64,000 bases of DNA, taken from the NCBI GenBank assembly GCA_017520425.1, contig JAFXFO010000022.1, positions 1 through 64,000 on the forward strand, in the 5' to 3' direction. This document shows, piece after piece, positions 45,207 through 53,954 of this stretch (the first letter of the stretch is position 1; each line of letters opens with the position of its first letter). Source of the DNA: Lachnospiraceae bacterium. GTDB taxonomy: Bacteria > Bacillota > Clostridia > Lachnospirales > Lachnospiraceae. The notes below the pieces were generated by a model. That model was not told where the DNA came from, ran no database searches, and saw only the letters and a list, made by a program, of their open reading frames with translations. The position numbers and the translations under genes were made by a program.

Positions 45207-47657
45207 TTAACTTAACAAGCTCTTGGCAACTTTCACGGCCTCTGCAGCATCCTTCGCATAACCGTCTGCGCCGATTTCCTTCATGAATTCCGGTGTTGTC
45301 ACAGCACCGCCAATCATCACCTTAGTTTTTAATCCTTTTTCCTTGACAGCTGTAACTACTTCCTTCATTCTTTGCATGGTTGTGGTCATAAGTGCAGATA
45401 ATGCTATGATATCCGCATGTTCTTCCATGGCTTTTTGTATAATCTGCTCTTTCGGCACATCCTTACCCAAATCCACTACACGGAATCCATAATTCTTCAA
45501 CATCATAGCCACCAAGTTTTTACCGATATCATGAATATCACCTTCTACGGTAGCAATTACAACCACAGGCATATCATCAGAAGTGGTGCTGACGGACAAC
45601 TTTTCTTCCAATATATCAATGGAATTTTTCATAGCTTCTGCACTGGCTATCAACTGCGGAAGGAAGTATTTCTTCTGTTCAAAATACTCTCCCACCAGAT
45701 TGATCCCCGGTAATAGAGCCTCATTCAAAAGCTTCTGTGCATCTTCACCCGCATCTAACGCCCGCTTAGTCAGCTTGGCGATACCATTTTTATTTCCTTT
45801 CAAAACAGCTTCCTTTAACAGCTTCACATATCCTTCAGAAGTATCCGTATCCACTGCCTTAACATCCGCCTTTGGTGCTGTAGTACTCTTTGCTTTCGTA
45901 TCCACGGGAGTGATTTTTGAAGCATATTCAATATACCGCAAGTCAGCTTCCTCTTTGGCCATTAACAAATCCGTTGCCAGAGCGCCGCATATCAGCATCT
46001 CCTGCGAGGGATTTGCAATTGCCATTGTCAGACCTGCCTGTATCGCCAGTGTCAGGAATGCAGTATTTACGTGCACACGGGCCGGCATACCAAAAGAAAT
46101 ATTGGACAAACCACAAACAGTCGCCAAACCCCTTTCCTTACAATAACGTATGGTTTCCAACGTCTCCAATGCGGCCATTTTGTTGGCACCCACAGTAGTC
46201 ACCAAACCATCTACAATAATGTCCTCTTTCTCCATTCCCAGTTCCAAAGCTCTGGTATATATTTTCTCAATAATATCCTTTTTCTCATCCAGATTTTTAG
46301 GTAATCCTTCATCCGACAGAGGTAATAAAATGAACATGGCACCGTATTTTTTAACGATAGGAAGAAGTTTTTCAAACTTTTCTTTCTCATAGGAAACGGA
46401 ATTGACCAATGCTCTTCCGGGATAAATGCGAAGTGCGGCCTCTAATACATCAATATGGCTGGAATCCAGTGAAAGAGGCAGATTGCTTACCATTTGAACT
46501 TCTTCGATAACCTGAAGCATCATTGCCTTCTCATCAATACCGCTCATACCCATATTCACATCCAACACGGAAGCACCATCCGCCTCCTGTTCCTGTGCAA
46601 AGTTAAGCACTCTTTCAATATTTCCCTGACGGAGTTCCTCCTGCAAGGCTTTTTTGCCGGTAGGATTAATACGTTCGCCAATAACCAAAAAGTTACCATC
46701 CAATCCAAAGGATATGGTTTCTCTTTCACTTGTCAAATAACGAATATTATCTTTCTTTTCATGCTTTACAGGTGCTTTCTCTTTAAGCATAGCTTTCACT
46801 GCTGCGATATGCTCAGGTGTGGTTCCGCAGCATCCGCCCAGGATAACTGCCCCTTTCGTAGTTAAAAGTTCCATTTCCTTTGCAAATTCTTCCGGAAGCA
46901 TGGGATAGATGGTTTTTCCATGATTATCCACCTGCGGAAGGCCTGCATTCGGCTTTGCAATCAACGGTAAATTCGTAACTTCCGCCATACCTTCAATAAT
47001 CTCTGCCATCTTAGCCGGCCCGGTGGAACAATTCACACCAATGGCTGCTGCTCCCAATTTATCTAAAACGATGGCTGCAGTTTTTGCATCGGTTCCAAAA
47101 AGGGTACGACCGTTTTCTTCAAAAGTTAAGGTAACCATTACCGGCAATTCACAGACTTCCTTAGCTGCTATTAACGCTGCTCGACACTCAGCCAGACTCA
47201 TCATGGTTTCTACCACCAAAAGGTCTACTCCGGATTCTGCCAAAAAGCCAATCTGCTCTTTATATACATCAATCAGCTCTTCTAACGGCATATCACCAAT
47301 AGGTGCCAATTGACGTCCGGTCATGGTCAGATCACCTGCAATATAAGCCTTGTCACCGGCAGCTTCTTTCGATATCTCCACCAGTGCCCGTATCATTTCC
47401 TTCTGTTTATCCGCCAGTCTATATTCTGCCAGTTTAATACGATTAGCCGTAAAGGTAGGCGCATACAGTATATTGGTTCCGGCTTCTACATATTCTTTCT
47501 GAAGCCGTAACATAACGTCACGATGTTCCAGTATCCACTGTTCAGGACATACTCCAACCGGCATACCAGCTTTCATTAGATTGGTACCGGTAGCACCGTC
47601 TAAAAGCAGAAAACCATTATATTTATCTAATAAACCATTGAAATCCATCACTTTCAT
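45207..47657 (-). CDS. metH: cobalamin-dependent methionine synthase, no reactivation domain
   Basis: Methylates homocysteine from methyltetrahydrofolate through a bound cobalamin, 816 residues. Residues about 1-290 are the homocysteine domain, with zinc cysteines in GVNCSTGP and GGCCGTTPEH. About 300-570 is the pterin-binding domain (GERINPTGKK, DVNMG). About 600-690 is the B12 cap and 690-816 the B12-binding domain with GDIHDIGKN (the DxHxxG His ligand). The C-terminal SAM-dependent reactivation domain of E. coli MetH is absent, as in many clostridia, so reactivation needs another protein. No SAM or B12 riboswitch is seen upstream. The start is at the ATG after GAGGTG. Confidence 0.93.
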   Translation of the reverse strand: MKVMDFNGLLDKYNGFLLLDGATGTNLMKAGMPVGVCPEQWILEHRDVMLRLQKEYVEAGTNILYAPTFTANRIKLAEYRLADKQKEMIRALVEISKEAAGDKAYIAGDLTMTGRQLAPIGDMPLEELIDVYKEQIGFLAESGVDLLVVETMMSLAECRAALIAAKEVCELPVMVTLTFEENGRTLFGTDAKTAAIVLDKLGAAAIGVNCSTGPAKMAEIIEGMAEVTNLPLIAKPNAGLPQVDNHGKTIYPMLPEEFAKEMELLTTKGAVILGGCCGTTPEHIAAVKAMLKEKAPVKHEKKDNIRYLTSERETISFGLDGNFLVIGERINPTGKKALQEELRQGNIERVLNFAQEQEADGASVLDVNMGMSGIDEKAMMLQVIEEVQMVSNLPLSLDSSHIDVLEAALRIYPGRALVNSVSYEKEKFEKLLPIVKKYGAMFILLPLSDEGLPKNLDEKKDIIEKIYTRALELGMEKEDIIVDGLVTTVGANKMAALETLETIRYCKERGLATVCGLSNISFGMPARVHVNTAFLTLAIQAGLTMAIANPSQEMLICGALATDLLMAKEEADLRYIEYASKITPVDTKAKSTTAPKADVKAVDTDTSEGYVKLLKEAVLKGNKNGIAKLTKRALDAGEDAQKLLNEALLPGINLVGEYFEQKKYFLPQLIASAEAMKNSIDILEEKLSVSTTSDDMPVVVIATVEGDIHDIGKNLVAMMLKNYGFRVVDLGKDVPKEQIIQKAMEEHADIIALSALMTTTMQRMKEVVTAVKEKGLKTKVMIGGAVTTPEFMKEIGADGYAKDAAEAVKVAKSLLS

Positions 47658-47686
47658 AAAGCACCTCAAAAATATACATTTCATAA

Positions 47687-47715
47687 ATCATACCATAAAT
47701 CTCTTTCTCATACAA
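47687..47715 (-). promoter_or_regulatory. promoter of metH
   Basis: TTGTAT (47710-47715) and TATGAT (47687-47692) are 17 bases apart on the minus strand. The leader is about 25 bases, too short for a riboswitch. Confidence 0.55.
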
Positions 47716-47772
47716 GCTAATTACATATCAGAAATATGATATCTTAAGATTTATGAAACTCCATACTAATCA

Positions 47773-47801
47773 TTGATTTCCTTCGGAAAATATGTTAAAT
47801 T
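47773..47801 (+). promoter_or_regulatory. promoter of lipoprotein gene
   Basis: TTGATT (47773-47778) and TAAATT (47796-47801) are 17 bases apart on the plus strand, 30 bases before the start codon. Confidence 0.5.
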
Positions 47802-47831
47802 TGTTATAGCTGTTTTTTAGGAGGAATTACT

Positions 47832-48290
47832 TTGAAAAGATTATTGATATTATGTTTATGCTGTGTATTTTTAACCGGATGCAAAAGTAACATAGATTAT
47901 GAGACAACTCGTTTCCATGCAGAGATTAACAGTTTCTGTGATAATATAAAAGAGATTGACGAATCCATCAATAAAATCACCAATATCACTGCAGATGAAG
48001 AAGGCTTAAAAGAAGCCACCAAATCTCTCATGAATCAGATGGACCGATTAAAAGATGAATTCACAAAATTCGCCAACATGGACTTCCCAACTGAATATGA
48101 TTATTTGGAAAAATTAGCCGATGAAGCTGGTTCTTACATGACCGAAGCAGTCAGTGCTTATCACAAGACTTATGAAGACAATTATACCGAAAGCATGGAA
48201 GATTATGCACAGCAGAATTACAGTCGTGCTTATAAGCGTGTTCAATTTATCATCGATAGCATAAATGGCAAAGACCCCAACGCTTCATAA
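47832..48290 (+). CDS. putative lipoprotein, 152 aa
   Basis: Secreted, lipid-anchored protein. A short signal peptide (LLILCLCCVFLTGC) ends in the lipobox LTGC, so Cys17 should carry the lipid. The rest is mainly helical and charged with no recognised domain. TTG is the start codon, seven bases after AGGAGG at 47819-47824; no better ATG is available. It is a single plus-strand gene divergent from metH. Function unknown. Confidence 0.8.
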   Translation: MKRLLILCLCCVFLTGCKSNIDYETTRFHAEINSFCDNIKEIDESINKITNITADEEGLKEATKSLMNQMDRLKDEFTKFANMDFPTEYDYLEKLADEAGSYMTEAVSAYHKTYEDNYTESMEDYAQQNYSRAYKRVQFIIDSINGKDPNAS

Positions 48291-48301
48291 TAGTGCAAAC
48301 A

Positions 48302-48332
48302 AAAAGCTCCTCGTAAAGAGGAGCTTTTCCAT
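48302..48332. terminator. bidirectional intrinsic terminator
   Basis: An eleven-pair stem (48302-48312 and 48318-48328, loop of five) separates the converging lipoprotein gene and the SPFH-operon tail. A short run of A on the left serves the minus strand; the plus-strand side ends in TTTTCC. Confidence 0.75.
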
Positions 48333-48343
48333 TTGTTGATTAC

Positions 48344-48715
48344 CTATTTCCAAATAACAATATCGCCGATAATAGGGAACTTTGTATCTTTTCCTTTTAC
48401 AGCAAGATAGATACCCCAAACACCAAATACTAAAGTAATCACATTCACAATAATACCGATTACCTTTGCAACTAAATCAAGTATCGGAATCAATCCAAGT
48501 ACCCAGCAAATCAAGCCGCACACCAGTCCAAGCACAATAATTACAAATGACTGATTCAAATGAACCATCGCACCCTTCTTGTCACCGACAGAATAAACGA
48601 CAAACCAAATGATCAACGGAATAAACATACCTAATTTTCCCAAACCATCCAGAATGCCAAACCAGCCTGCCAAAATAGCTGCATAAGCAACAATTGATGT
48701 AACCTTTTTGTCCAT
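48344..48715 (-). CDS. DUF4870-like small membrane protein
   Basis: A 123-residue membrane protein with about four hydrophobic segments. AYAAILAGWFGILDGL, a VVYSVGDKKGAMVHLNQSF loop and an Ile/Val-rich tail fit DUF4870-type proteins. The ATG at 48715 has GGGAGG seven bases upstream. It follows the zinc-ribbon genes by 86 bases and may be the last member of that operon or a separate gene. Confidence 0.7.
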   Translation of the reverse strand: MDKKVTSIVAYAAILAGWFGILDGLGKLGMFIPLIIWFVVYSVGDKKGAMVHLNQSFVIIVLGLVCGLICWVLGLIPILDLVAKVIGIIVNVITLVFGVWGIYLAVKGKDTKFPIIGDIVIWK

Positions 48716-48800
48716 TTCTAATCCTCCCAAGATTATATTGTTCTATATCAAGCCACATAAAGGCTTAGATACCATACAACCACCCCTATAAGACGAAAGA

Positions 48801-49271
48801 TTATAATACTTTAGTACCACAATTAGGACAGAATGCACCATTTTCAACTGCCTGACCGCATTTAGGGCATACAACTGCCTTTTCTTCCTGCATCACATTA
48901 TTCAGATAACTGTTTGCCTCCTGAATATTGGTTCCGCACTTTGTACAGCAAATCACGTCACTGTTTTCTTCTGAACCACAATTGGGACAAATCTGTAATC
49001 CCTTTGCAATTGCAAGTTCCTTCTTATCCTTTTCAATCTGATCCTGAAGTTCCCGAATACGCTTACAAGCATCAGGACAAATGCCAAGTAATTCTTCAAA
49101 GTGATCATTTACCATCACCTTTGCAATTTCCAAATGACATTCTTTAATTTCTTTTTCTGCTTCCTTAATCTTCATGGTTAAAGTTACGGTACTGGAAACA
49201 CCACTGGCTTTCTGCGAAACAGCAGCGCCTGCATTCTTTAATGATTCTTTAGCCTTGTTAAAAAAGTCCAT
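48801..49271 (-). CDS. coiled-coil protein with two zinc ribbons
   Basis: A 156-residue soluble protein. Residues about 25-90 are helical. Two Cys4 zinc ribbons follow, CPNCG...CTKCG (about 94-115) and CPKCG...CPNCG (about 135-153). The spacing is that of zinc-ribbon (DUF) domains fused to many membrane-stress proteins. I do not assign a function. It lies 15 bases downstream of the next zinc-ribbon gene, in the SPFH operon. Confidence 0.8.
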   Translation of the reverse strand: MDFFNKAKESLKNAGAAVSQKASGVSSTVTLTMKIKEAEKEIKECHLEIAKVMVNDHFEELLGICPDACKRIRELQDQIEKDKKELAIAKGLQICPNCGSEENSDVICCTKCGTNIQEANSYLNNVMQEEKAVVCPKCGQAVENGAFCPNCGTKVL

Positions 49272-49285
49272 ATTCCTTCTCCCTT

Positions 49286-49915
49286 CTATTTACCTGTGAT
49301 AGGTGTATCACAATAATCACAATATATGGTCTCACCCTTCTTAATAACGTGCTTTGCACCGCATCCGGGACATACCACATTAACATTTACAGGTGCTTCC
49401 ACCACTTCCACTGCAGGAGCATAACCATTATTACTTCTGACCGGCGCTTCTCTTCTTACCGTAATCATACGGCCATTGGTATCCAATATGGCACCTTTTA
49501 AGATATTACGATTAATTAATGTCTGAAGTTCTTTAAGCATTACATCATACTGAATATTACAAACACTTGCAATTTTATCCAATGAAGTTTCTCCGCGGTT
49601 TACAATCAGTTCAATATACTGTCTGTTTCTCTGTGCTTTCTTTTGCAATCTGTCAGCATAATAAATCAACGCTCCGCCACCTGCCATTGTAAACAAGCCC
49701 CAGAAAACGCTGTTACTCAGCCAGCATAAACCAACAATAATCAATAAAATTCCGCCGATTATGTACTTTTTCTTATCTGTTGTTCCCATAAATACAGCCT
49801 GTTTGCCCTGGGAATTACGTGATAGTATTAATAAAATACCGACGGGCCAGCAAGCAAGTAATGCAATAATGATTACTACCCCGGATTGATACCAGGGTCT
49901 GATATTGTTATCCAT
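49286..49915 (-). CDS. membrane protein with HTH-like domain and zinc ribbon
   Basis: A 209-residue protein. Two or three hydrophobic segments occupy about 10-85 (VVIIIALLACWPVGILLIL and others). A winged-helix-like segment with TSLDKIASVCNIQYDVML and LINRNILKGAILD follows at about 108-150. A C-terminal zinc ribbon is CPGCG...CDYC (about 185-203). The combined membrane, HTH-like and metal modules are unusual. The HTH-like part may be a protein-binding domain, not DNA-binding. It lies between the four-helix membrane gene and the two-ribbon gene, each at 15-base spacing. Confidence 0.75.
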   Translation of the reverse strand: MDNNIRPWYQSGVVIIIALLACWPVGILLILSRNSQGKQAVFMGTTDKKKYIIGGILLIIVGLCWLSNSVFWGLFTMAGGGALIYYADRLQKKAQRNRQYIELIVNRGETSLDKIASVCNIQYDVMLKELQTLINRNILKGAILDTNGRMITVRREAPVRSNNGYAPAVEVVEAPVNVNVVCPGCGAKHVIKKGETIYCDYCDTPITGK

Positions 49916-49930
49916 TCTTCCTTCCTCCTA

Positions 49931-50614
49931 TTACCACATAGGGTTACTTGTATTCATAATACGCTTTCTTTCTTCTGCCGCCAATTCCAGCTGATGGCAC
50001 AAATCCGCAACCATCTCCTGATTGTTATTGTTAACAGCCTCATCCAGCATATTAATCATATCTAACATTTTATTTTCAACTACACGTGCCATATCATTGC
50101 TTTGCACCTGTCCGCTAGCCATAGAATCATAAGCATGCTTCATCTTCTTATAGTTCACATCCTCATACTTCACATTGGCAATTACAGCCTGCATTCTATC
50201 CAGCACGTACTTAAACGCAATAATATCGCGCCCTCTTACTGCCTGCTGTTCTTTAATGGTATTATTGTGAATACTGGTGCCCAGCATTACAGTAAGATAG
50301 AAAGCAAATACAAATAAATTAATCAAGAACAAAGGTAGTAGATTGTCCTGTAAAAGCTTGTAAGTAACTACTGCTACTACAACAGCAACAATACTGTACA
50401 AATATGTAACTGCCATTACAGGATACTTAAATATCAAAGCCTCTTTCTTTGTATAGAAAATCTCTACACCGGTAGCAATTAATGCCGCAATCATGGCGAA
50501 TACATAGCAAATCCAGAAGGCTTCATTAAAATCATCTAATATCAAAAATACTGCAAGATTGGTAAACAGGATTACGATTAAAGAAATCAAACCCTTCATT
50601 ACATTATTCTTCAT
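49931..50614 (-). CDS. four-helix membrane protein with helical C-terminus
   Basis: A 227-residue protein with about four transmembrane helices in the first 115 residues and a soluble, mostly helical half (about 120-227) that looks like a protein-interaction domain. No named family is recognised. It follows the SPFH gene by 13 bases and precedes the HTH/zinc-ribbon gene by 15, which suggests that the proteins act together at the membrane. Confidence 0.75.
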   Translation of the reverse strand: MKNNVMKGLISLIVILFTNLAVFLILDDFNEAFWICYVFAMIAALIATGVEIFYTKKEALIFKYPVMAVTYLYSIVAVVVAVVTYKLLQDNLLPLFLINLFVFAFYLTVMLGTSIHNNTIKEQQAVRGRDIIAFKYVLDRMQAVIANVKYEDVNYKKMKHAYDSMASGQVQSNDMARVVENKMLDMINMLDEAVNNNNQEMVADLCHQLELAAEERKRIMNTSNPMW

Positions 50615-50627
50615 GAATCGTTTCCCC

Positions 50628-51905
50628 CTATTCCTCTACTTTACTTCCGCAACTGCCACAGAATTTCATACCTTCCGGAACTTCCATTCCACAATTTGTG
50701 CATTTCTTTTTCTGTTGTACTACCATGGTACCGCAATTACCGCAGAACTTCATACCGGGGATTAAATCTGCACCACAGCTTGCACATTTAGGCTTCTTGC
50801 TTTCCACCTTGGTACCACAATTACCACAGAAAGCCATACCTGCGGGAACCACTGCATTACAATTGCTACAAATCACCTTTGGTTCACCGTTACCGGCCAT
50901 AATAGAGTTATTATTGCCCATGAGCTGTCCCATTACATCGCCCATCTGAACACCCATTCCAAGGCCAACACCTGCACCCATTATACCGCCTGCAATGCCT
51001 TCGTTCTTTGCAGCTGCACGCATTATCTCAGCCGCTTCCTGACGTGCCCAACCGTTATTACCGTCCTGATCACGAATCGCCATTCTCTCATAATCTGCAT
51101 GTGCCATCTGACCGGATACATAACGATCTGCTTCAGAAGATTCTCTACGCAAACTAAAACGCATTCTCTCATCTTCAACATTCTGTTCACGTTCGAATTC
51201 TCTTTCCTTACGCTGAATACGCATCTCACGTACTCGCTTCATACTGTCATCGTTTTCAGGTACTTCAATGCTTTCAATATAGAAGTTAACCAGTTCCAGA
51301 CCATACTCGTCCAGAATCTCATTCAACATGGGTGCCAGACCGTCTGCCAACTGTTTCTTACGGTTGATAGAAACCAGCACTTCTGCATCCTGTGAGGTAA
51401 GATAGTTAGCCAATTCATCGGTAATGTTCTGAATAAAAGCAGTACGGAAATTACGTACGATTTCATTCTCTTCCATGGAACCATTTGCACCAACTAATTT
51501 CAGGAAGAACTTTTTGCCATCCTTAACCTGCACAGTATATGCACCTCTGGCCTGCACATGCATTTCAATGCCCCATACAGGGTCCAAAACTCTCAGTGCG
51601 CTACCGGTACCCCATTTTAACTCCAAATGGTGAGATTTGTTAATATAATATACCTTACAATTAAATGCACTTACACCACCGGTAAGCAGCTTAGACATAA
51701 ACTTTGTAATAAACGGATAGTTCTCAGTCGTCAAAGAATACTTACCGGGACCGAAAGAATTCTCTACCAGACCATCCTTCATAAATAATGCTTCTTCATA
51801 CTCTGCTACAATCAGCTGTGAGCCAACATTAAAATCCTCATAAGGAACTTTATAGCACAGCATATTTCCGGATGCATTATTTTTAATAACATTCATTATG
51901 GGCAT
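50628..51905 (-). CDS. SPFH-domain protein with C-terminal zinc ribbons (YdjI-like)
   Basis: A 425-residue protein. The first two thirds are an SPFH/band-7-like domain with a helical stretch (about 220-290) like B. subtilis YdjI (virion core protein) family members. A Gly/Met-rich linker (GGIMGAGVGLGMGVQMG) at about 310-335 leads to three tandem zinc ribbons: CSNCN...CGNCG, CASCG...CGNCG and CTNCG...CGSCG. In B. subtilis, YdjI acts in a PspA-linked envelope-stress operon; no PspA gene is visible here. AAGGAGGGG precedes the ATG and a promoter lies upstream, so it heads the operon. Confidence 0.85.
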   Translation of the reverse strand: MPIMNVIKNNASGNMLCYKVPYEDFNVGSQLIVAEYEEALFMKDGLVENSFGPGKYSLTTENYPFITKFMSKLLTGGVSAFNCKVYYINKSHHLELKWGTGSALRVLDPVWGIEMHVQARGAYTVQVKDGKKFFLKLVGANGSMEENEIVRNFRTAFIQNITDELANYLTSQDAEVLVSINRKKQLADGLAPMLNEILDEYGLELVNFYIESIEVPENDDSMKRVREMRIQRKEREFEREQNVEDERMRFSLRRESSEADRYVSGQMAHADYERMAIRDQDGNNGWARQEAAEIMRAAAKNEGIAGGIMGAGVGLGMGVQMGDVMGQLMGNNNSIMAGNGEPKVICSNCNAVVPAGMAFCGNCGTKVESKKPKCASCGADLIPGMKFCGNCGTMVVQQKKKCTNCGMEVPEGMKFCGSCGSKVEE

Positions 51906-51940
51906 AATTATCCCCTCCTTGAATCATATTGATTATGTAT

Positions 51941-51968
51941 ATTTTACCATAATACTGTCATTTTTCAA
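51941..51968 (-). promoter_or_regulatory. promoter of SPFH/zinc-ribbon operon
   Basis: TTGAAA (51963-51968) and TAAAAT (51941-51946) are 16 bases apart on the minus strand, about 36 bases before the start codon. Confidence 0.6.
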
Positions 51969-52021
51969 GTAATATTATGCTAATAATTGGTTTTATCAGT
52001 ATTATTTTGTCGATTTTTCAC

Positions 52022-52059
52022 AAAAAAGAAGCCAGAATCCTTTTACGATCCCGGCTTCT
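52022..52059 (-). terminator. intrinsic terminator after GGGtGRT gene
   Basis: A 13-pair stem (arms 52047-52059 and 52027-52039, two G-U pairs, loop of about seven) is followed on the minus strand by TTTTTTG. It lies 28 bases after the stop and isolates the pair of genes from the SPFH operon. Confidence 0.85.
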
Positions 52060-52086
52060 GATTATTCATTATTCTTTTTCGTTTTT

Positions 52087-53097
52087 TTAGAACTTGCCTT
52101 CTTCAGCTGCCATCTGGATAGCTACTGCAACAGCTACAGTCATACCAACCATAGGGTTGTTACCTGCACCGATAAGACCCATCATTTCTACGTGAGCAGG
52201 AACAGATGAAGAACCTGCGAACTGTGCGTCTGAGTGCATACGACCCATGGTATCGGTCATACCGTAAGAAGCAGGACCTGCAGCCATGTTATCAGGATGA
52301 AGGGTACGTCCGGTACCACCACCTGAAGCTACAGAGAAGTACTTCTTGCCCTGTTCGTTACATTCCTTCTTGTAAGTACCTGCAACAGGATGCTGGAATC
52401 TGGTAGGGTTAGTAGAGTTACCGGTAATGGAAACGTCTACGCCTTCCTTATGCATGATAGCAACACCTTCGCAAACATCGTTAGAACCGTAGCAGTTAAC
52501 CTTTGCACGAAGTCCTTCAGAGTAAGACTTGCGATATACTTCCTTAACAGTGTTGGTGTAAGGATCGTATTCGGTTTCTACGAAAGTAAATCCGTTGATA
52601 CGAGCGATAATCTGAGCTGCGTCCTTACCAAGACCGTTTAAGATAACTCTTAAAGGCTTTGTACGAACCTTATTAGCCTTCTCAGCGATACCGATAGCAC
52701 CTTCAGCAGCTGCGAAAGACTCATGACCAGCCAAGAAGCAGAAACATTCGGTTTCTTCTTCCAATAACATCTTACCTAAGTTACCATGTCCGAGACCTAC
52801 CTTACGGGTGTCAGCTACAGAACCGGGAATACAGAAAGCCTGAAGACCTTCACCGATTGCTGCTGCAGCATCAGCTGCTCTCTTGCAACCCTTCTTGATA
52901 GCGATTGCAGCACCTACAATGTAAGCCCAACAAGCGTTCTCAAAACAGATAGGCTGGATAGCCTTAATCTGGTCGTATACATTAAGACCTGCGTCTTTTG
53001 TAATCTTTTCAGCTTCTTCGATAGAAGCGATGCCATAGCTATTTAATACGCCATTGATTTTATCAATACGTCTTTCATATGATTCAAATAATGCCAT
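52087..53097 (-). CDS. GGGtGRT protein
   Basis: Member of a family named after its motif, here ASGGGTGRTLHPDN (about residue 252-265). The 336 residues contain many Cys and conserved blocks such as FCIPGSVADTRKVGLGHGNLG, and AYIVGAAIAIKKGC. The enzyme or partner is not known to me. The NifU-like scaffold gene lies immediately upstream (20-base gap) and shares its transcript. That suggests a role linked to Fe-S cluster assembly or delivery, which is inference from context. Confidence 0.88.
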   Translation of the reverse strand: MALFESYERRIDKINGVLNSYGIASIEEAEKITKDAGLNVYDQIKAIQPICFENACWAYIVGAAIAIKKGCKRAADAAAAIGEGLQAFCIPGSVADTRKVGLGHGNLGKMLLEEETECFCFLAGHESFAAAEGAIGIAEKANKVRTKPLRVILNGLGKDAAQIIARINGFTFVETEYDPYTNTVKEVYRKSYSEGLRAKVNCYGSNDVCEGVAIMHKEGVDVSITGNSTNPTRFQHPVAGTYKKECNEQGKKYFSVASGGGTGRTLHPDNMAAGPASYGMTDTMGRMHSDAQFAGSSSVPAHVEMMGLIGAGNNPMVGMTVAVAVAIQMAAEEGKF

Positions 53098-53116
53098 TTT
53101 TACGTCCTCCTATCTC

Positions 53117-53809
53117 TTATTCATGTCTGGGGTCGATAATCTTAACTGCATCAGCCACACGACCATACTGTCCTTTAGCCTTCTCCCATGCGGTGTTAGG
53201 ATCGTCACCCTTCTTAATAAAGTCAGTCATCTTGCCAAGGCTTACGAACTGATATCCGATGATATGATCATCAGCATCAAGTGCGATACCGGTTACATAA
53301 CCTTCAGCCATTTCCAAATAACGGGGACCCTTAGCCAATGTACCGTACATAGTACCAACCTGGCTTCTTAAGCCCTTACCAAGGTCTTCCAAACCTGCAC
53401 CTACAGGAAGTCCGTCCTCAGAGAAAGCAGACTGTGTACGACCATAAACGATCTGTAAGAACAGTTCTCTCATTGCAGTGTTGATTGCGTCACAAACAAG
53501 GTCAGTATTTAAAGCTTCCATAACGGTTCTGCCGGGCAGAATCTCAGAAGCCATAGCTGCTGAGTGAGTCATACCGGAACATCCGATGGTCTCAACCAAT
53601 GCTTCCTGGATGATACCTTCCTTAACGTTCAGAGTCAGCTTACAAGCACCCTGCTGAGGAGCACACCAGCCAACACCGTGTGTTAAACCGCTAATGTCTG
53701 TTACATCTTTAACTTTTACCCATTTTGCTTCTTCAGGAATGGGAGCACAACCGTGAGACACGCCCTGTGCTACGGGACACATTTCTTCAACTTCTCTTGA
53801 ATAAATCAT
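53117..53809 (-). CDS. NifU/IscU-like iron-sulfur scaffold protein
   Basis: Probable Fe-S assembly scaffold of 230 residues, partner of the GGGtGRT protein. Cysteines at PQQGACKLTL and ETIGCSGMTHS align with the first two ligand cysteines of IscU; further Cys lie in CPVAQGVSHGC at the N-terminus, in GWC and in LVCDAIN. The start is taken at 53809, where AGGAGAT is well spaced; the open frame to 53890 lacks support. Biochemical role is inferred from family. Confidence 0.85.
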   Translation of the reverse strand: MIYSREVEEMCPVAQGVSHGCAPIPEEAKWVKVKDVTDISGLTHGVGWCAPQQGACKLTLNVKEGIIQEALVETIGCSGMTHSAAMASEILPGRTVMEALNTDLVCDAINTAMRELFLQIVYGRTQSAFSEDGLPVGAGLEDLGKGLRSQVGTMYGTLAKGPRYLEMAEGYVTGIALDADDHIIGYQFVSLGKMTDFIKKGDDPNTAWEKAKGQYGRVADAVKIIDPRHE

Positions 53810-53954
53810 GTGAAATCTCCTTTCAAATCTGATTATATTTAGATACCTTTTATCTTTTGATAAAAAAATACCATAAATCACCGCATACATTCTCTCACAT
53901 TTGGATTAAAAAATCCAGTGTTTTTTTGTATTTTTTGTAATTTGCTGTAAGATT

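Follow-up and report, generated by a model that had tools for sequence, protein, structure and literature searches.

The 64,000-nucleotide window analyzed here (contig JAFXFO010000022.1 of a Lachnospiraceae bacterium, assembly GCA_017520425.1) carries on its minus strand a cassette in which a gene for an SPFH protein with zinc ribbons (gene 1) is followed by genes for a four-helix membrane protein (gene 2) and for a membrane protein related to XpaC (gene 3). These three genes are inherited together, and the SPFH gene and gene 2 form the core of the unit. We propose, with about an even chance of being right, that the cassette encodes a membrane-anchored SPFH scaffold, the ribbons of which dock partner proteins and the likeliest use of which is in envelope stress. 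The genes are as follows:

50628..51905, minus strand: gene 1, SPFH (Band_7_1) protein of 425 amino acids (aa) with three C-terminal zinc ribbons (PF13421 score, six CxxC motifs, hydropathy)
49931..50614, minus strand: gene 2, 227 aa, four transmembrane (TM)-like segments and a helical, presumably cytosolic tail (hydropathy, neighbour survey)
49286..49915, minus strand: gene 3, 209 aa, TM segments, putative XpaC-type winged helix, one C-terminal zinc ribbon (profile-profile match, invariant cysteines)
48801..49271, minus strand: gene 4, 156 aa, amphipathic at its start, then a charged helical stretch and two zinc ribbons; optional member (helical moment, locus survey)
48344..48715, minus strand: gene 5, DUF4870 membrane protein, same direction, outside the conserved set (PF09685, gap, locus survey)

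A preliminary description of this region, made from the sequence, had placed five genes in a row here, and five minus-strand open reading frames (ORFs) are present. Its spacing of 13-15 bases agrees with the first three gaps (13, 15 and 14 bp), whereas the last gap, given as 86, measured 85 bp. In the ORF list, gene 5 starts with TTG at 48730; an ATG at 48715 is preceded by GGGAGG. The domains assigned to the products were mostly recovered. Gene 1, described as an SPFH/YdjI-like protein with three ribbons, scored 119.6 bits against PF13421 (cut-off 24) and thus belongs to the SPFH family; its three ribbons account for the six CxxC motifs. It has no TM-like segment, and its highest 19-residue hydropathy is 1.25; in other words, the membrane helix or hairpin of a flotillin is not seen in it. 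By hydropathy, gene 2 has the four TM-like segments that had been claimed, followed by the helical tail of about 115 residues. Gene 3 had been called a membrane protein with helix-turn-helix-like and ribbon parts: TM-like segments are at residues 13-31 and 52-70 with a weaker hydrophobic stretch to about residue 86, residues 91-156 match the DDRGK winged helix below the cut-off (E 0.0041), and the ribbon cysteines C182, C185, C199 and C202 are invariant. In gene 4, two ribbons lie behind the charged helical stretch, as had been described; the claimed coiled coil, however, was seen by eye only, as that charged stretch. Gene 5, called DUF4870-like, scored 26.4 bits against PF09685 (cut-off 25). 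The total of six zinc ribbons was also right (three in gene 1, one in gene 3 and two in gene 4). No solved structure related to gene 1 by sequence was found, and those for gene 2 were weak matches. The Pfam matches of gene 2 itself were all below cut-off, and no Pfam or NCBIfam family was consistent across 50 gene-2 members: 13 Pfam families each matched one of the 50, and the most frequent NCBIfam match was EPS_sugtrans (3/50).

We scanned named genomes with an SPFH alignment, obtained 441 relatives and kept the best 80 of the 441 as loci. The 19 closest loci (59-76% identity) belong by title to Lachnospiraceae or its genera, plus two Ruminococcus metagenome-assembled genomes (MAGs). Genes 1, 2 and 3 were found in the same order and strand in all 19 (the contig of L017 ends within gene 3). 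Carriers of the cassette include Pseudobutyrivibrio ruminis CF1b (L022) and P. xylanivorans DSM 14809 (L023). Therefore, the grouping of these genes is more than chance. The flanks were viewed for 11 of the 19 loci: L027, L028 and L030 have a common ribosomal-protein setting (the ribosomal gene names there are presumed ones), and the other eight differ mutually. Gene 2 lies next to gene 1 in 75 of the 80 loci, which is 75 of the 77 with room, as the contig stops before gene 2 could be scored in L058, L059 and L078. In the remaining two loci, L074 and L083, gene 3 comes directly after gene 1; in L094, gene 2 is present as a short frame only. The core unit is thus the pair of SPFH gene and gene 2. 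We also drew, separately, 200 genomes from the window's family (its own genome included); 22 strong gene-2 matches (E 1e-15 or better) were found in 21 of these genomes, and 20 of the 22 were within 2.5 kb of an SPFH match. Of the other two, that in G105 is on the same contig as an SPFH match at about 7 kb, and for G092 no SPFH match is listed. In G196 and G024, gene 2 is on the opposite side of the SPFH gene. Single-protein searches of 120 family genomes detected gene 2 in three and gene 3 in four; profiles reach more. The profiles of genes 3 and 4 were made from cores without the C-terminal ribbons; whole-gene profiles pulled in ribbon proteins.

Gene 4 was present in nine of the 18 close loci with room (L021, L025-L030, L032 and L033; the L027 copy is broken). 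No gene 5 turned up in any of the 80 loci, many of which are cut by contig ends, and it was rejected as a cassette member. Genus locus L115 has genes 1-2-3-4, with no gene 5 in the part viewed. Because gene 5 was not found in these 80 relatives and gene 4 is present in about half of the closest loci, the five-gene boundary of the preliminary description is unsupported. That description had also held that scattering of the genes in relatives would speak against it: genes 1-3 are not scattered, whereas gene 5 is. Its more general idea, an operon of membrane-scaffold-type proteins with ribbons, is borne out by the co-inheritance of genes 1-2-3.

Other SPFH genes were seen near some of these loci. 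The window's own genome has a second SPFH locus (L016:6537-8816, G000:C21), in which the gene for a distant SPFH protein with ribbons precedes one for a membrane protein that has a ribbon-like stretch. In L019 (3213-5073) and L020 (4130-5017), a second SPFH-type gene lies about 2 kb upstream of gene 1, with a weak match to the gene 1 profile in L019; there, it is preceded by another gene, which by eye resembles HflK.

The domain make-up of gene 1 (SPFH, C-terminal zinc finger, no TM segment) is that of YdjI as given in the available part of PMC8581546, and the likeness to YdjI noted in the preliminary description therefore stands. According to the same part of that source, the soluble YdjI of Bacillus subtilis is placed at the membrane only when YdjG and YdjH are present; in two-hybrid tests, YdjI and PspA are both contacts of YdjH (PMC8581546). 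The lack of a TM-like segment in gene 1, together with its presence in genes 2 and 3, matches the YdjI case. In the mechanism that we propose, a cassette of three to four genes would build a scaffold on the cytosolic side of the cell membrane. By analogy with YdjG and YdjH holding YdjI in B. subtilis, gene 2 would be the membrane anchor that holds the soluble SPFH oligomer of gene 1 at the inner leaflet. The ribbons of genes 1, 3 and 4 would be protein-docking modules, which gather partners on this platform. Gene 3, with its XpaC-type hairpin and winged helix, would be a second membrane-held partner, and gene 4 a peripheral helical protein on the platform. The cassette might then stabilise or mark the membrane during envelope stress. 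Oligomer and complex formation, topology, ribbon docking and the stress role are what we infer for the cassette, the last because of the analogy with YdjI and XpaC.

The preliminary description had stated that no PspA is present. The own assembly, which is 90.38% complete, gave no match to PF04012 (PspA), in agreement with this statement. In the 200 family genomes, PspA was above cut-off in 61, and in at least 43 of these 61 it was within 5.5 kb of an SPFH match (PF13421); 43 is a lower bound, as 80 of the SPFH matches were entered. None of the 22 strong gene-2 matches was on a contig with an above-cut-off PspA, although many of the assemblies are fragmented. From the proximity of PspA to SPFH genes on the one hand and of gene 2 to SPFH genes on the other, it follows that the family holds two SPFH arrangements, one PspA-linked and one gene-2-linked, and that the window has the second. 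A TPM domain (YdjH-like) was not found among the scanned window proteins; one TPM protein is encoded elsewhere in the genome (C36). A YdjG-like combination of two ribbons, a YpeB-related NTF2-like domain and a TM segment gave no Pfam match at the locus, the YdjG of B. subtilis being compared by description. Of the earlier interpretation as a whole, the co-inherited operon, the YdjI-like gene 1 and the absence of PspA remain, and its five-gene boundary does not.

The XpaC link of gene 3 gives the best, although indirect, support for a possible envelope role. Across 30 gene-3 relatives, no Pfam or NCBIfam family was consistent (the commonest were DUF2852, 7/30, and PCI, 3/30), and gene 3 itself had no match at E 0.1 to PF10112, which we take to be XpaC, and hence no full-length match to that family. 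However, the core of gene 3 scored 46.4 bits against the PF10112 protein of its own genome, and comparison of gene 3 with the N-terminal half of 20 XpaC proteins by hhalign gave a probability of 99.0% (E 6.4e-18, 89 columns). In contrast, the probability for the XpaC C-terminal half was 0.2%. Gene 3 has the TM hairpin plus winged helix expected of XpaC, and judged from these profile comparisons this part is homologous to the XpaC N-terminal half. We also considered a split XpaC, in which the tail of gene 2 would be the C-terminal half; this idea was rejected because the match was not significant (probability 0.9%, E 0.064). One of the 50 gene-2 members touches PF10112 at E 0.0081, and whole gene 2 matched the XpaC N-terminal half with a probability of 35.8% (E 3.8e-4) over a stretch that includes TM sequence. 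In the family draw, the gene-3 profile had matches in 133 of the 200 genomes. Eight matches in seven genomes stand out (E 8.6e-38 or better), and six of these eight, from five genomes, adjoin SPFH and gene 2 matches. Matches from about E 1e-18 to 1e-9 mostly cover the hairpin and winged helix within longer, XpaC-like frames, mostly of about 370-600 residues; the weakest listed mostly cover the ribbon only. In the window's own genome (L097 / L154, G000:C20), a PF10112 protein with an N-terminal half homologous to gene 3 is followed by a TelA-looking frame, presumably TelA in L097. As far as the available parts of the two papers go, XpaC/TelA genes are raised in a transcriptome table for CesSR of Lactococcus (PMC3139573), and a Listeria phage-shock paper discusses XpaC/TelA and the nisin susceptibility of a mutant of lmo1967, which is TelA-like (PMC12791056).

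Several observations weigh against the scaffold for envelope stress. The cassette is patchy: the gene-2 profile was found in 26 of the 200 family genomes and in 15 of 61 genus genomes (own included). PF13421 matches were present in 147 of the 200. Two of the eight strong gene-3 matches (G065 and G164) have no listed SPFH match next to them. The promoter of the cassette looks ordinary, with an extended -10-like block. PspA was present in seven of the 21 genomes with gene 2 and in 54 of the 179 without it, which is the same proportion; therefore, the cassette does not look like a simple PspA substitute, and replacement of PspA by the cassette at the genome level is unsupported. Finally, a sister clade of the SPFH-gene 2 pair sits in toxin-type loci.

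This last point came from a tree of 85 SPFH rows, which was a quick build with support from the Shimodaira-Hasegawa-like approximate likelihood ratio test (SH-aLRT), without bootstrap and with long branches flagged. The window clade (20 rows, support 92) has gene 3 in 20/20 rows, a Clostridium/termite-gut clade (23 rows, support 100) has it in six, and the third, sister clade (38 rows, support 82) has toxin-locus markers in 30 rows. Gene 3 thus accompanies the pair in two separate SPFH clades. L016, L037, L038 and L039 are outside the three clades; L038 and L039 have markers. The gene 3 label changes twice on the tree (shuffled mean 22.4) and the marker label 10 times (shuffled mean 25.9). Four kinds of gene served as markers: those for a HerA-type ATPase (PF01935), for a YidD-like protein (PF01809), for a TPR-ribbon protein and for a PH-like protein without a Pfam match. 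The pair is near at least one of them in L011, L012, L036, L038-L047, L051, L052, L054, L056, L057, L059-L065, L070, L072, L073, L084, L088, L091 and L093 (in L059, SPFH is at the contig end). Ten neighbours were scanned, and four of them gave matches to known toxins: ADPrib_exo_Tox, Gln_amidase, and Colicin-DNase with WHH (two proteins). The marker-bearing loci are possibly an undescribed toxin-related system. The phylum labels of the records may reflect binning because many of the records are MAGs.

Because the sister clade sits in such HerA/YidD-like/toxin loci, a role in conflict is a live rival. The pair would then serve export of, or protection from, proteinaceous toxins or phage, and the window would be a stand-alone offshoot for immunity or defence. 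In addition to the marker-bearing rows and toxin-family neighbours, this explanation is favoured by the large proteins of 600-900 residues that we saw by eye near the pair in other loci of the family or genus (L116-L122, L124, L128, L131 and L132), which have an N-terminal ribbon, repeats and varied C-termini. However, no member of the four marker families was detected in the 10 kb around the cassette or in the 19 closest loci, the window clade is separate on the SPFH tree, and PADLOC gave no match that we consider meaningful for the window genes (best 1.7e1 bits, gene 4) and none for gene 2 or the sister-clade SPFH. We consider a conflict role of the window cassette unlikely.

Membrane surveillance is nevertheless not the sole reading, because the SPFH-gene 2 pair also occurs in toxin-type loci of other bacteria. 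It is conceivable, although we would give it clearly less than an even chance, that the SPFH protein and gene 2 make up a membrane platform which is widespread and carries interchangeable adaptor tails (ribbon or SHOCT), its clients differing by lineage: XpaC-like ribbon proteins in the window, which would be a stand-alone form, large ribbon-repeat proteins elsewhere, and an undescribed HerA/YidD-linked polymorphic-toxin system in still others. We count one further result in favour of the proposed scaffold: in three groups of loci, a simple ribbon pattern was found in 27/82, 23/74 and 27/132 of the ORFs that lie on the same strand as the pair and no more than 2.5 kb from it, and in 0/32, 0/50 and 4/87 far ORFs (77/288 near versus 4/169 far in sum). 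This contrast is partly built in, because genes 3 and 4 themselves are counted among the near ORFs and some of the far ORFs may be spurious frames.

Two further explanations are less probable than a conflict role. In a Psp system without PspA, gene 4 would do the work of PspA and genes 1-3 would recruit it as YdjGHI recruit PspA. The first 18 residues of gene 4 are amphipathic (helical moment 0.451, reached by 1.5% of shuffles, for one chosen window), which fits such a role, as does the absence of PspA from the own genome. In contrast, gene 4 does not match PF04012 at E 0.1 and is missing from nine of the 18 close loci, the presence of PspA in genomes is independent of gene 2, and the YdjH-type TPM domain is encoded elsewhere in the genome. 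We regard this explanation as quite improbable. It is very unlikely that the cassette is a membrane-tethered regulator, in which gene 3 would bind DNA through its winged helix and report the membrane state to transcription: single relatives among the 30 weakly match DeoR, HTH_36, PafC or TrmB, one of two single NCBIfam matches is YgbI, and the gene 3 profile touches the solved LrpA at E 0.031, but the closest relative of gene 3 is XpaC, its other weak matches are PCI, DDRGK and the solved chain 1wi9 (Protein C20orf116 homolog, which we take to be DDRGK1), and no operator-like block was seen by eye outside the promoter region when 10 upstream sequences were aligned.

The non-coding elements around the cassette are as follows:

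51941..51968, minus strand: promoter-like site with extended -10 (10/12 consensus positions)
52027..52059, minus strand: terminator-like hairpin 3' of the upstream GGGtGRT gene
48302..48328, listed on the plus strand, with minus-strand use read from the sequence: hairpin between gene 5 and the convergent gene 47832-48290

As a class, promoter-like sites are not enriched in the region (17 found versus 17.6 expected from shuffles); by eye, the -10-like block recurs in most of the 10 aligned upstream regions. No RNA family was found at gathering scores in 47500-52300. Upstream of the cassette (52087-53890, minus strand), a GGGtGRT protein is encoded beside a protein that matches NifU_N below the cut-off. 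On the plus strand, the convergent gene 47832-48290 is small and lipoprotein-like, with sub-cut-off family matches only; the hairpin at 48302-48328 is common to it and gene 5.

An SPFH-ribbon scaffold operon is a kind of system that is already known. The partner set of the window was not found in the available parts of PMC11237479, PMC9239133, PMC10936438, PMC3581485, PMC3482391 and PMC7159879, and no description of a toxin-related SPFH-gene 2 arrangement was found in the literature available in part, which mostly does not cover subscription papers. Gene 2 is a near-constant membrane partner for a large SPFH class, in records labelled as several phyla, and offers a concrete candidate anchor for a soluble scaffold. 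Moreover, the cassette joins two envelope-stress families, SPFH/YdjI and XpaC, and an arrangement related to toxins is suggested by the sister-clade loci, where the pair has a HerA ATPase, a YidD-like protein and variable toxin domains nearby.

Compared with polymorphic toxin systems as given in the available text of PMC3482391, in which the terms YidD, SHOCT and Band-7 are absent, the sister-clade loci also have variable toxin domains and a HerA-type ATPase, whereas the window cassette has neither. Flotillins have the SPFH domain in common with gene 1, which differs in having no TM-like segment or hairpin. XpaC (PF10112) resembles gene 3 in the TM hairpin and winged helix of its N-terminal half; gene 3, however, lacks the XpaC C-terminal half and ends in a ribbon instead, and no gene like telA, the partner of XpaC, was found beside it in the window protein scan. 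The PspA-linked SPFH proteins of the same bacterial family likewise belong to PF13421, whereas the window SPFH is linked to gene 2 instead of PspA. The closest comparison is with pspA-ydjGHI of B. subtilis, as far as the available parts of PMC8581546, PMC9239133 and PMC11237479 describe it: both loci encode a soluble SPFH protein with a C-terminal zinc finger beside membrane and ribbon proteins. In place of PspA, the TPM-domain YdjH and the two-ribbon, NTF2-like YdjG, the window locus has gene 2, the XpaC-like gene 3 and gene 4.

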